Part shown: one piece after another, positions 36,031 through 41,418 of the stretch
How positions within the stretch are numbered: position 1 is the first letter of the stretch
How the letters are laid out: each line of letters opens with the position of its first letter
Origin: Gilliamella sp. wkB108
GTDB lineage: Bacteria > Pseudomonadota > Gammaproteobacteria > Enterobacterales > Orbaceae
DNA: 64,000 bases
Direction: 5' to 3'
Assembly (NCBI RefSeq): GCF_001690195.1
Contig: NZ_LZGM01000085.1
Span: 1 to 64,000 of the forward strand
Notes under the pieces: model-generated
The model's input: only the letters and a program-made list of their open reading frames with translations
Told to the model about the DNA's origin: nothing
Database searches by the model: none
Program-made: the position numbers and the translations under genes

Positions 36031-36594
36031 TTAATAAGTGATATAAATATGTTCGGCTTGAAAGCGCACCTCTTTTTTATCAAGTTGAAGCAATTCCGCT
36101 AGAGTAAACGCAAATTTAAAAGCGATACCAAGACCTTTACCGCTAAATAGATTTTCATCAAGCACCACATCTTGATCAACATACACACCATCATTAGCTA
36201 ATTTATACAAATCACCAGAGCAAACATATCTTCGACCATGAAGTAAATTATTTTTGCTTAATACCTTAACGGCAGCTGAGCAGATAGGGCAAATCCATTT
36301 TCCTGCTTTATCATGTAATTGAATAAAAGTGATGACATCAGGATTTTTACCAAGATTAATTGTGCCATCTGGCCCACCGGGAAGAATAATTGCATCATAG
36401 AGTGTGGTTTCTTTTTCTTTAAGTAATGCATGCGCTTTAATATCTATATTGTGATAACTGGTTACCACAATGTTATCTTGGCACGCTAATAGGTCAACAT
36501 TAATCTTCACACGACGTAATGCATTAAAAATAATGATAGCTTCTGCTTCTTCAAAACCTTCTGCAAGTAAAATGGCGACTTTAGGGTTATTCAT
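36031..36594 (-). CDS. DJ-1/PfpI family protein (YajL-like)
   Basis: This is a 187-residue protein of the DJ-1/ThiJ/PfpI superfamily. The conserved Glu of AEGFEEAE (about residue 15) and nucleophile-elbow Cys in PICSAAVKVL (about residue 102) are present, as in YajL and DJ-1, which have been described as chaperones or deglycases. E. coli YajL has 196 residues. The GGPDGTINLGKNPDV loop is typical. Substrate or role cannot be fixed from sequence. The gene is monocistronic on the minus strand. Confidence 0.82.
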   Translation of the reverse strand: MNNPKVAILLAEGFEEAEAIIIFNALRRVKINVDLLACQDNIVVTSYHNIDIKAHALLKEKETTLYDAIILPGGPDGTINLGKNPDVITFIQLHDKAGKWICPICSAAVKVLSKNNLLHGRRYVCSGDLYKLANDGVYVDQDVVLDENLFSGKGLGIAFKFAFTLAELLQLDKKEVRFQAEHIYITY

Positions 36595-36683
36595 ATAAAT
36601 AGTTCCTCTATTAAATAAAATTTGAATTATTGTTTCATAAATTTTTACGACTTTTTCAAAAAAAATAGGAGAAATAAAACATT

Positions 36684-36699
36684 TGTGATGAGAATCACA
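36684..36699. promoter_or_regulatory. CRP site upstream of the GPH transporter/GH105 operon
   Basis: TGTGATGAGAATCACA has both half-sites TGTGA and TCACA exactly as in the CRP consensus, with a 6-bp spacer. It is about 229 bp upstream of the first ATG of the operon and 90 bp upstream of the divergent DJ-1 gene. Catabolite control of the oligosaccharide operon is the likely role. Confidence 0.75.
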
Positions 36700-36912
36700 T
36701 CGACTTTTAAATTTTTGCCACTTTTATAAAAAGTTGGCATTCAATTTAAGGTGTAACTAGACCTCTCACCATAGACTATTTGTTGTATCTGGAATAAATA
36801 TTTGGTTTTTTGTTGAAAAATAAAACATCACTGTCTTTAGATACAAGATCGCATTTTACAGTTAATGACAATTTACCATTAAGGTGAATTGATTACACAA
36901 GCGGGTGTCAAA

Positions 36913-38433
36913 ATGAAAAATAGAGTGATAGGTTTAAAAAATTACTTAGCATATGGATCGGGTGATTTTTTAGGTGCGGGAACCACCGCACTAACAGCTG
37001 CGTGGTTGTTGTATTTTTATACCAATTTTTGTCATTTAACTCCCATTGAGGCAACTTTTATTTTTGCTGCTGCCAGAGTGGCAGATGCAGTTATAAGTCC
37101 ATTAATGGGATATTTAACCGATAATTTTGGACGAACTCGCTTAGGAAAACGGTTTGGACGACGTAAATTCTTTATTTTATTGGGGATCCCATTAATCTTT
37201 AGTTATAGTGTAATGTGGGCTCCAGGCATGAGCTATATCTATTATCTGTTGACCTATCTTTTCTTTGATATTGTTTATACTATGGTACTTGTACCATATG
37301 AAACCCTTGTTCCTGAAATGACGGATGATTTTAAACAAAAAACCAAATTCTCAGGTGCGCGTATTTCAATGGCTCAATTGTCAGCTATTTTAGCTGGTTT
37401 CTTACCGGGTATCTTACTCAGCTATTTTGGTAAAGATAATGCCATATCATTTTTCTATTCTAGCCTAGTTTTCTCTATTTTATGTTCTATTGCACTTTGT
37501 ATGGTGTACTTATTTACATGGGAAAGACCAAAAGAGTTGAAATCTAAAGAGGCATTACAAGCAGAAGAAGAGGCTGCGTCATTAACTTTCAAAGAGAGTT
37601 TTAAACACTTAATTATTGAGTTGTTATCTACCTTTAAAATAAAGATATTTCGACAACATTTGGGCATGTATTTAGGTGGATACATCGCGCAAGACGTCTT
37701 CAATGCAGTATTTACTTACTATGTTATTTTTGTATTACTACAAGAGCCAACGGTAGCCTCGATGTTAATTGGTACTATGTCTATAACGCAATTTATAGCT
37801 GTTTTATGTATGATGCCATTATGTATTAAATATGGCCCCGCCCCATCATATCGGGGAGTGGTAACTATTTTTGGTATCAGTTGTTTAGCTTATGGTATTG
37901 TTTGGTACTATAATTTAAGTCATATACACACACTATTAATTACAATTTCAGCTATCGCAGGATTGGGTCGCGGCGGTATTAACTATGTACCATGGAATAT
38001 CTATACCTATATTTCAGATGTGGATGAAATGATCACTGGCAAACGTCGTGAAGGTATTTTTGCAGGTGTGATGACGTTCACTCGTAAAGCATCTCAAGCT
38101 GGAGCAGTTATGTTAATCGGTGTATGTCTACAAATGTCAGGTTTTGTGAGTGGACAAACACAACAACCGCCTGAAGTATCACAAACCATTCTTTTCTTAT
38201 TAGTTTTTGGTACCGTTTTTGTGTTGACATTAGGGTTCCTTATTTCATTGAAATTTAAATTAAACCTAAAAACACATAGCGTATTGATTAATGAAATTAA
38301 AAATATGAAAGGTATTGGTACAAATCCTGATAAAAAAATTACTGATGAAGGAAAACCTATTGTAGAAATGCTTACTGGTATGCCGGTTGCCGAGCTCTGG
38401 GGTAATAATAATATAGGTTATAAGAAAAAATAA
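36913..38433 (+). CDS. GPH family (MelB-like) oligosaccharide:cation symporter
   Basis: This is a 506-residue membrane protein with about 12 transmembrane helices, of the glycoside-pentoside-hexuronide:cation symporter family. The N-terminal YGSGDFLGAGTTALTAAWLLYFYTNF and the loop TDNFGRTRLGKRFGRRKFFILLG are typical of GPH proteins. It is followed at 49 bp by a GH105 gene, matching RhiT-type rhamnogalacturonide transporters. The start is uncertain: ATG 36913 precedes MKNRVIGLKNYLAYG, the usual family N-terminus, while TTG 36889 adds eight residues without a well-spaced ribosome-binding site. The hydrophilic C-terminal tail is long (about 45 residues). Confidence 0.85.
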   Translation: MKNRVIGLKNYLAYGSGDFLGAGTTALTAAWLLYFYTNFCHLTPIEATFIFAAARVADAVISPLMGYLTDNFGRTRLGKRFGRRKFFILLGIPLIFSYSVMWAPGMSYIYYLLTYLFFDIVYTMVLVPYETLVPEMTDDFKQKTKFSGARISMAQLSAILAGFLPGILLSYFGKDNAISFFYSSLVFSILCSIALCMVYLFTWERPKELKSKEALQAEEEAASLTFKESFKHLIIELLSTFKIKIFRQHLGMYLGGYIAQDVFNAVFTYYVIFVLLQEPTVASMLIGTMSITQFIAVLCMMPLCIKYGPAPSYRGVVTIFGISCLAYGIVWYYNLSHIHTLLITISAIAGLGRGGINYVPWNIYTYISDVDEMITGKRREGIFAGVMTFTRKASQAGAVMLIGVCLQMSGFVSGQTQQPPEVSQTILFLLVFGTVFVLTLGFLISLKFKLNLKTHSVLINEIKNMKGIGTNPDKKITDEGKPIVEMLTGMPVAELWGNNNIGYKKK

Positions 38434-38475
38434 GTTTGAATCATATTGATGATATTAAAGTAAAATTAGAGGTAC

Positions 38476-39621
38476 ATGGACATGCAAATTTTCCCAGTAA
38501 AACATAGTAAGTTACTATGTAAGCCTGAGTATTTGGTTACTCGCTCAGAGTTAGAACAATTAATTCGAAAAATAGTAAACAATTTAATTAATATCCAAGA
38601 TGAAACCGGTGAATTCCTTTTACGCTTAGATGATGGGCGCGTTATTGATACCAAAGGTTGGTGTGGTTGGGAGTGGACTCATGGTATTGGTCTTTATGGG
38701 ATGTACCAGTTTTACCAACAAACCGGTGATCAAAAAACACTTAATATCATTGATGATTGGTTTAAACAACGTTTATCAGAAGGTACGCCAACTAAAAATG
38801 TCAATACGGTTTGTCCATTTTTAACTTTAGCATATCGTTATGAAGAAACTAAAAATCCTACCTATGTACCTTATTTAGAACGTTGGGCAGATTGGGTAAT
38901 GTATGAGATGCCAAGAACTAAATTTGGTGGATTACAACATATAGTTTATAACAATGAAAATCATCAACAGCTTTGGGATGATACATTGATGATGAGTGTG
39001 TTGCCAATAGCTAAAATTGGTAAGCTTTTAAATAAAAAAGAGTACATTCAAGAAGCGATTTATCAAATATTGTTTCATATACAATATCTGATGGATCGCC
39101 AAACAGGACTTTGGTTCCATGGTTGGACTTTTGAAGGAAATCATAATTTTGCTAACGCAAGATGGGCAAGAGGAAATAGTTGGTTAACCATTGTTATTCC
39201 TGAATTTATTGAATTACTCGATCTTAAAGAGAGTGATCCTATCAGGAGAACTTTAATCGAAGTATTAAATGCGCAAGTTGAAGCATTAGCTAAATATCAA
39301 GATAAAAGTGGTTTATGGCATACTATTATTGATGATCCTGACTCTTATCTTGAAGCCTCAGCAACAGCAGGATTTGCTTATGGTATATTAAAATCTATTA
39401 GAAAACGTTATATTTCTAATGATTATATTCCAGTTGCCGAGAAAGCCATACAAGGTGTAATAAATAATATCGATGATGAAGGAACATTACTGAATGTTTC
39501 ATTTGGAACGGCAATGGGTAATGATATTGATTTTTATAAAAAGATCCCATTAACATCGATGCCTTATGGTCAAGCCATGGCTATTTTATGTTTAACTGAA
39601 TATTTAAGAGTATTTATTTAA
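38476..39621 (+). CDS. GH105 unsaturated rhamnogalacturonyl/glucuronyl hydrolase
   Basis: This is a cytoplasmic glycoside hydrolase of family 105 (YteR/YesR type). It removes the unsaturated uronic acid from pectin-derived disaccharides released by lyases. It has 381 residues, the usual size. The (alpha/alpha)6 barrel features are visible: GWEWTHGIGLYGMYQFY (about 57-73), WDDTLMMSVLPIAKIGKLL with the catalytic Asp (about 158-176) and FANARWARGNSWLTIVIPEF. No signal peptide is present, consistent with uptake by the upstream GPH transporter. ATG 38476 is 3 bases from AGAGG and ATG 38482 is 9 bases; the latter may be the real start. Confidence 0.88.
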   Translation: MDMQIFPVKHSKLLCKPEYLVTRSELEQLIRKIVNNLINIQDETGEFLLRLDDGRVIDTKGWCGWEWTHGIGLYGMYQFYQQTGDQKTLNIIDDWFKQRLSEGTPTKNVNTVCPFLTLAYRYEETKNPTYVPYLERWADWVMYEMPRTKFGGLQHIVYNNENHQQLWDDTLMMSVLPIAKIGKLLNKKEYIQEAIYQILFHIQYLMDRQTGLWFHGWTFEGNHNFANARWARGNSWLTIVIPEFIELLDLKESDPIRRTLIEVLNAQVEALAKYQDKSGLWHTIIDDPDSYLEASATAGFAYGILKSIRKRYISNDYIPVAEKAIQGVINNIDDEGTLLNVSFGTAMGNDIDFYKKIPLTSMPYGQAMAILCLTEYLRVFI

Positions 39622-39728: not shown

Positions 39729-40424
39729 ATGAGTAATCCACTAACATGGCATGATGTCATCGGTGCAGAAAAAGAAAAGCCTTATTTTCAACAAATAATG
39801 CAATTCGTTGCTTCTGAGCGTGCTGTGGGAAAGGTAATTTACCCTCCCCAGCATGATGTATTTAACGCCTTCCGATTTACCCCCTTTAATGACATCAAAG
39901 TTGTGATTTTAGGACAAGATCCTTATCATGGTCCTAATCAAGCTCACGGACTTTCCTTTTCTGTCTTACCGGGTATCAAACCACCGCCGTCGTTATTAAA
40001 TATTTATAAAGAACTCTCGACTGATATTGACGGTTTTAGTATACCCTCACACGGATATTTAGCCTCTTGGGCTAACCAAGGCGTGTTACTATTAAATACT
40101 GTATTAACTGTTGAGGCTGGACAAGCTCATTCACATGCAAAAATGGGGTGGGAAACGTTTACCGATCATGTCATTGCTATGATTGATAAATATCTTACAG
40201 GGGTAGTTTTTTTGTTATGGGGTTCACCCGCTCAAAGAAAAGGTCAATTTATTGATCGCCAAAAACATCATGTTTTGACATCAGTTCACCCTTCGCCTTT
40301 ATCCGCTCATCGTGGTTTTTTGGGATGTAAACACTTTTCAAAAACCAATAACTTTATTTTGCAACAAGGTAAAACACCGATAGATTGGCAACCTCGATTA
40401 CCGGAAAATAATAATGAGCATTAA
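39729..40424 (+). CDS. ung: Uracil-DNA glycosylase
   Basis: Ung excises uracil from DNA. It has 231 residues (E. coli 229). The catalytic Asp is in [22 protein letters not shown] (about residues 58-79), and the His loop is [18 protein letters not shown]. This is family 1 UDG. The 3' end overlaps the start of gntR by 11 bp. Confidence 0.97.
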
Positions 40425-41418
40425 TAAAAAACGTCGAACAGGTTTGCAAGAGATTGCTGATTTAATTGGTATAAGTAAAATGACGGTAAGTCGTTTTCTG
40501 CGAGATCCCAAATTAGTGTCTGAACCACTTCAATTACAAATTTCAGAGGCTATTGATAAGCTAGGGTATATTCCTAATAAAGCCCCTGATATGCTCTCTA
40601 ATGCTAAGAGTAATGCAATTGGGGTTTTGTTGCCTTCTTTAACTAACCAAGTTTTTGCTGAAGTATTGAAAGGGATTGAGATAGAAACAGATAAATATGG
40701 TTATCAAACTATGATTGCCCATACTGGTTATAGTCCTGAAAAAGAAGAAATGCGTTTACGTTCATTACTTGCCTATAATATTGATGGACTAGTTCTGACT
40801 GAACGTACTCACACAGAAGCTACCCGAAAAATGATAGAAATATCCGGTGTTCCTGTGGTGGAAATTATGGATAGTGTTTCCCCTTGTCTTGATATGGCTG
40901 TAGGGTTTGATAATTTTGCTGTGACTAAAAATATGATTAATCGCATGATCAACAAAGGTCATCAACATATTGCTTATTTTAGCGCTCGCCAAGATGATCG
41001 TAGTATTATCAGACAAAAAGCTTATGAAGAAGCGATGATAGAAGCCGGATTGATACCCAAGACATTTGCCACTAAAGCGTCTTCCTCTTATTCATTGGGA
41101 ACTCAATTACTTCAGCAAGCGTTAAAAGATTATCCACAAATTGATGGCGTATTTAGTACTAACGATGATTTAGCTTTAGGGGTACTTTTTGAATGTTTAC
41201 GACTTAACATTAAAGTGCCAGAACAAATTGCTGTAGCGGGTTTTCATGGTCATGATGTTGGGCAAGTTATGACGCCAAAACTTGCATCAATTTTAACACC
41301 AAGAGTAGAAATTGGGCAGAAAGCTGCTGAAATGCTATTAAAACGTATTAACGGAGAATCCATTACTCAAAAAGTTGTCAATTTTCCGGTACAATTTTTA
41401 GATGGTGAAAGTATTTAA
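40414..41418 (+). CDS. gntR: GntR-like gluconate repressor (LacI family)
   Basis: This is a 334-residue LacI-family regulator. The HTH is [23 protein letters not shown]. The effector domain matches E. coli GntR along most of its length, for example [47 protein letters not shown] and [13 protein letters not shown]. In E. coli it represses gntK, gntU and gntT in response to gluconate. None of these genes is adjacent here; the partner operon must be elsewhere or lost. Its start lies inside ung. Confidence 0.88.

Follow-up and report, generated by a model that had tools for sequence, protein, structure and literature searches.

What do a transporter gene and the glycoside hydrolase gene behind it do in a strain of Gilliamella, a genus of bee-associated bacteria, and where would their substrate come from? 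The window, by which we mean the whole stretch of 64,000 nucleotides that was analysed (G000:C85:1-64000), belongs to a genome of 3.08 Mb in 129 contigs. A first-pass annotation had described a CRP-linked module that would import and cleave unsaturated rhamnogalacturonan disaccharides. The two genes can be confidently placed as a rhiTN operon, a known type of rhamnogalacturonide importer and hydrolase, and the features of the locus are collected in Table 1.

Table 1. Features of the rhiTN locus, in positions of the window.
Feature	Positions	Strand	Remarks
KdgR-like box TGAATTATTGTTTCA	36623-36637	+	weak; left half degenerate
CRP palindrome TGTGA-N6-TCACA, TGTGATGAGAATCACA	36684-36699		exact
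RhaS-type inverted repeat TTAAA..TTTGCCA-N14-TGGCA..TTAA	36703-36752	+	conserved in congeners
rhiT, GPH-type (MFS_2) transporter	36913-38433	+	PF13347; ORF open from TTG 36889
rhiN, GH105 hydrolase	38476-39621	+	PF07470, NF051900; start may be 38482

Family models bore out the GH105 hydrolase of the first-pass annotation, and one of two models did so for the GPH transporter. The full rhiT open reading frame (36889-38433) matched MFS_2 (PF13347) with 165.8 bits (curated cut-off 27), and its product scored 160.9 bits against TIGR00792 (gph), below the curated cut-off of 231.35. ATG 36913 is the likelier start since it is common to six copies of the gene. After a gap of 42 bases follows rhiN, which matched Glyco_hydro_88 (PF07470) with 367.9 bits (curated cut-off 26.6) and is the sole match to this family in the genome. 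On inspection by eye no signal-like hydrophobic stretch was seen at the RhiN N-terminus, in line with the enzyme having been called signal-less. The operon is flanked by genes that we take to resemble grcA and ung. Divergent from rhiT lies a gene of the DJ-1/PfpI family (36031-36594, minus strand), which is missing from G007 and G012, where the pair is decayed, and from one congener with the intact pair (G001). A LacI-type gene downstream (40414-41418) was considered as the regulator of rhiTN and rejected: it scores as the gluconate repressor GntR above the cut-off, and it is retained in two congeners with decayed rhiTN.

Of 60 genomes searched, that of the window among them, six scored over the cut-off of model NF051900; all six are congeneric and make up 6 of the 35 genomes of the genus. 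Decayed rhiN genes were found in G007, with six stops, and in G012, as a 50-residue remnant. In all five other intact congeners the pair has the same order and place, between the grcA-like and ung-like genes, and the proteins are 89-94% (transporter) and 87-92% (hydrolase) identical to those of the window. Named genomes were scanned for loci encoding a RhiN relative and the best 80 of 525 were kept, all Enterobacterales by name except two Marinobacterium records. In 75 of these 80, including loci of Dickeya and Pectobacterium, the rhiN relative is immediately preceded by a RhiT homologue in the same orientation, and full-length homologues among the 80 are 66-74% identical to the window transporter; none was found within the examined stretch of L039, L064, L065, L079, and L094. 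Two of the 75, from Symbiopectobacterium and Sodalis endolongispinus (L068:4320-5970; L086:4987-5983), have a fragmented rhiT next to a rhiN whose frame is open. Four Kluyvera loci (L070:7356-8939, L071, L082, and L083) carry a second GPH homologue downstream of rhiN, with 41-42% identity. Of 5426 E. coli genomes, 27 matched the hydrolase gene at the DNA level, in no case over more than 80% of its length, and in the two loci viewed the GH105 relative adjoins a KdgM-family porin and a TRAP transporter, not RhiT. In E. coli RM14723 (L012:5989-12893) a few kilobases separate these GH105, TRAP, and KdgM genes from genes annotated as LEE. In a RhiN tree with a midpoint root only, the six congeners form one clade grouped with Erwiniaceae (100/91), a position that hints at transfer. 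In the accessible text of PMC3870299, Erwinia chrysanthemi RhiT imports unsaturated rhamnogalacturonides, RhiN frees rhamnose and unsaturated galacturonate, and rhiTN is under RhaS control; that of PMC10763509 gives the same account of rhiT and rhiN from Klebsiella.

A perfect pair of CRP half-sites had been noted before the module, and it is indeed exact. It is the single occurrence of TGTGA-N6-TCACA in the window (0.073 expected, mean of 300 first-order random windows), and a CRP site is kept at the homologous place in all five congeneric loci with the pair, three times exactly and twice with one mismatch. That the site is a general mark of rhiTN was ruled out, as at least 9 of the 10 half-site bases were present in only 1 of 73 enterobacterial rhiT upstream regions; at least 8 were present in 20. 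The first-pass annotation, whose reading of the module is supported, did not name rhiTN and overlooked elements of the RhaS and KdgR types in the same region. All six congeneric rhiT upstream regions contain a ATTGTTTCATAAATTT block at the KdgR-like box, and they also have the CRP site in common as well as a repeat, TTTTGCCA...GTTGGCA. The RhaS-type repeat recurs before rhaB in the window's genome and in G001, again behind a CRP-like site. A pattern drawn up after viewing the rhiT and rhaB sequences, TTTGCCA-N13..16-TGGCA, occurred eight times in 412,748 bases of congeneric loci, six times before rhiT and twice before rhaB; these loci are no random sample because they were chosen around rhi, pectin, and rhamnose genes. 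The spacing is N14 in the six rhiT copies versus N15 before rhaB. The motif TGCCA-N15-TGGCA was present in 53 of the 73 enterobacterial upstream regions, always with a spacing of 15 though 12-17 was allowed. The 20 regions without it came from Mixta, Winslowiella, Pantoea, two Erwinia persicina records, and one record labelled Enterobacter cancerogenus, which places among Pantoea in the RhiN tree. With an enterobacterial RhaS-type profile the site before rhiT ranked 2nd and 4th in the window (two orientations), behind 26243, among the matches listed, and in the rha loci the rhaB site came first in G001 and was not among the four listed in G000. The profile alone is not decisive. We read the inverted repeat as a putative RhaS operator. 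KdgR-type boxes were found in 40 of the 73 enterobacterial upstream regions, in 26 of them together with the RhaS-type repeat. The KdgR-like box of the window is weak, ranking 8th of 127,952 positions when scored with a profile built on the enterobacterial boxes. Before ogl and the dhuI-like gene, all five aligned congeneric loci retain a KdgR box with a CRP palindrome next to it.

Putative routes for both proposed cleavage products, that of the uronate traced as far as the kinase, are encoded in the genome. Its rha genes comprise rhaBADT and a gene for rhamnose mutarotase (rhaM); rhaB, rhaD, rhaT, the mutarotase, and RhaS exceeded their NCBIfam cut-offs; a RhaR-like protein in the same locus fell short of its own. 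KdgR and a DhuI-like gene are clustered with Ogl (oligogalacturonate lyase), an SDR reductase (DhuD-like), and a KdgF-like cupin, and the best match to KdgK is a kinase with 61% identity to that of E. coli. The names DhuI, DhuD, and KdgF were given by family (RpiB/LacAB, SDR, and Cupin_2), by context, and from the accessible part of PMC12838403; on a congener's cluster NCBIfam gives gluconate 5-dehydrogenase for the SDR and hypothetical protein for the isomerase. A congeneric pectin cluster (L107:11162-15394) likewise comprises an RpiB/LacAB-type isomerase, Ogl, an SDR, and KdgR. RhaA was present in 17, a KdgR orthologue (>500 bits) in 12, and a DhuI-like protein (>300 bits) in 13 of the 35 congeners, and each of them in all six with intact rhiN; the test of this co-occurrence took no account of the kinship of the genomes. 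A route through KduI was rejected: across the 35 congeners PF04962 had no match in any rhiN carrier, and of its two matches (G020 and G023) that in G020 scores as IolB.

The source of the fragments was sought in a genome-wide search for lyases that covered PL1, the PL4 domains, and PL11. PL1 (PF00544) was found in 8 of the 35 congeners and in four of the six with intact rhiN; the whole genomes of G000 and G003 had no match, so that PL1 is also absent from the window, as had been noted for pectate lyase. At the pel locus, G001, G002, G018, and G032 have open reading frames for a GPH transporter, a KdgM porin, a PaeY-like esterase, PL1, and a PelX-like lyase (families scanned in G001, where PaeY and PelX score under cut-offs). 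This block is absent from the window's genome (L118:12928-13036 on G000:C16), where its neighbours stand 109 bases apart and no remnant was found at its usual place. Judging by G003 (L120) and G006 (L121), which still have the block's transporter along with fragments of KdgM and PelX, the block may have been lost here, as opposed to never having been present. KdgM was found in 9 of the 35 congeners, with no match in G000 or G003. PL11 had no match in the 35 congeners, with working controls, and PL4 domain PF14686 had none in the eight congeners with the locus and matched all three Dickeya/Pectobacterium genomes. The other PL4 domain, PF14683, also gave no match in the 35 congeners; this result is uninformative alone since the controls were without match too, and PF14686 was used instead. 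By PF14686 and PL11, then, no carrier congener has a rhamnogalacturonan lyase, and for this reason the carriers appear to have no source of the proposed substrate of their own. To judge by the models searched, the fragments have to be supplied from outside. With no PL1, PL4-domain, PL11, or KdgM match and the pel block missing, the earlier suggestion that the cell depends on lyases encoded elsewhere or by neighbours is strengthened.

We hypothesize that rhiTN supplies a DhuI/DhuD route with fragments that others have made. As the best explanation of the whole we hold this to be probable; the identity of the genes, their synteny, the conservation of the upstream elements, and which pathway genes are there or absent were observed, and substrate, activity, regulation, and scavenging are all deduced from sequence. 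RhiT, a GPH-type symporter, would import unsaturated rhamnogalacturonan disaccharides (unsaturated galacturonyl-rhamnose), which cytoplasmic RhiN would cleave into L-rhamnose and unsaturated galacturonate. L-rhamnose would enter RhaABD. Unsaturated galacturonate would open to DHU, helped by the KdgF-like cupin, and DHU would pass through the DhuI-like isomerase, the DhuD-like reductase, and the KdgK-like kinase. Most likely, RhaS and CRP would activate transcription of rhiTN and KdgR would repress it. The import and cleavage first proposed for the module gain support from rhiTN synteny, from the candidate RhaS-type operator common with rhaB, and from the uronate and rhamnose pathways. As the strain is without the secreted lyases and the porin of some congeners, it probably lives on scavenged fragments that others release. 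Counted against this explanation were the BglB name, Asn at the Asp88 column, the TIGR00792 score below cut-off, the lack of a rhamnogalacturonan lyase match in any carrier, the spacing of the RhaS-type repeat and its ranks in the window with the enterobacterial profile, the weak KdgR box, and the naming of DhuI, DhuD, and KdgF by family and context. A bolder version, that the strain, with neither lyases of its own nor the KdgM porin nor the other transporter encoded at the pel locus, is a dedicated scavenger in which rhiTN is the main dedicated door to the unsaturated-uronate route for rhamnogalacturonan fragments from the community, sensed through rhamnose, is rather doubtful.

The enzyme name bears on what the pair serves. 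RhiN scored 505.9 bits against NCBIfam NF051900 (beta-galactosidase BglB), over the cut-off of 420, and a beta-galactosidase in a pair serving beta-galactosides would account for this score. The active-site residues of YteR are, we assume, D88, D143, H189, R213, and W217. RhiN matches the columns of D143, H189, R213, and W217, and has Asn at that of D88, as do 81/81 RhiN sequences (window Asn110 of the 381-residue ORF, 38803-38805; in the motif search one sequence was missed at H215 and one at W236). The replacement of Asp88 could likewise be taken to favour a beta-galactosidase; as it holds throughout, the RhiN clade may differ from YteR in mechanism. The transporter, the candidate operators, and the pathway context are, however, those of rhamnogalacturonide use, and no title on such an activity of these proteins was found in the literature, judged mostly by titles. 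We therefore consider a beta-galactosidase very improbable, and the genomic context does not favour the name for RhiN.

Less far-fetched, and still improbable, is that the same machine takes another unsaturated uronyl disaccharide, for example from homogalacturonan or arabinogalactan. The carriers have no PL4-domain or PL11 match, four of the six have PL1, and the two E. coli relatives are neighbours of a porin and a TRAP transporter in place of RhiT, all of which would suit such a substrate. Yet the candidate operator common to rhiT and rhaB and the presence of rhaA in 6/6 carriers point to rhamnose, and Ogl is already there for unsaturated digalacturonate. The operon might also be a relic that no longer matters after the loss of the lyases, a view to which its intact state in just 6 of 35 congeners and the decay in G007 and G012 lend some colour. 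We give it hardly any credence: both frames are open in the window, proteins and upstream elements are conserved, and the lower pathway is retained. Moreover, rhiTN decay does not follow lyase loss, because both decayed genomes still have PL1.

The preferred reading, uptake of rhamnogalacturonan fragments released by others, touches on an earlier discussion. According to the accessible text of PMC5090037, Gilliamella strains vary in PL1 (five genomes), growth on rhamnose follows the rha genes, and the authors considered that digestion and uptake may be split between different strains. In that of PMC11822680 (2025), gene clusters for homogalacturonan and RG-I are reported to be enriched in certain species of Gilliamella, and its supplements may contain parts of the present description. 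No title on rhiTN in Gilliamella was found in the literature. Our data place a known operon type in a genome whose gene content suggests scavenging. They make a genomic case for division of labour, as rhiTN-carrying congeners differ in having pectate lyase, and to this case they contribute an importer that can be named and is likely controlled by rhamnose, together with genomes suited to testing the idea. The automatic annotation "beta-galactosidase BglB" may cover other rhiN genes.

Among solved structures, the nearest relatives of RhiN, over the full length, are the GH105 proteins of Klebsiella and Salmonella (3pmm and 3qwt), whose function calls from structure vary by method: in the accessible part of PMC5980557 a structural comparison assigns both weakly to UGH with one method and to URH with another. 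Like rhiTN of Erwinia and Dickeya, the pair consists of a GPH-type importer and then a GH105 hydrolase, with a RhaS-type control element (here a candidate), and its identity to the Dickeya oryzae pair is 72% for the transporter and 75% for the hydrolase. Unlike that system, no PL4-domain lyase was found in the eight congeners tested, the strong CRP site is a feature of the window's lineage, and a DhuI-like isomerase replaces KduI in the window's genome. In this last respect it resembles the streptococcal DhuD-DhuI route, in which, as given in the accessible part of PMC12838403, an RpiB/LacAB-family isomerase and an SDR reductase are clustered and replace KduI/KduD; the likeness is one of family and context, and the cluster in the window's genome differs in also holding Ogl and KdgR.
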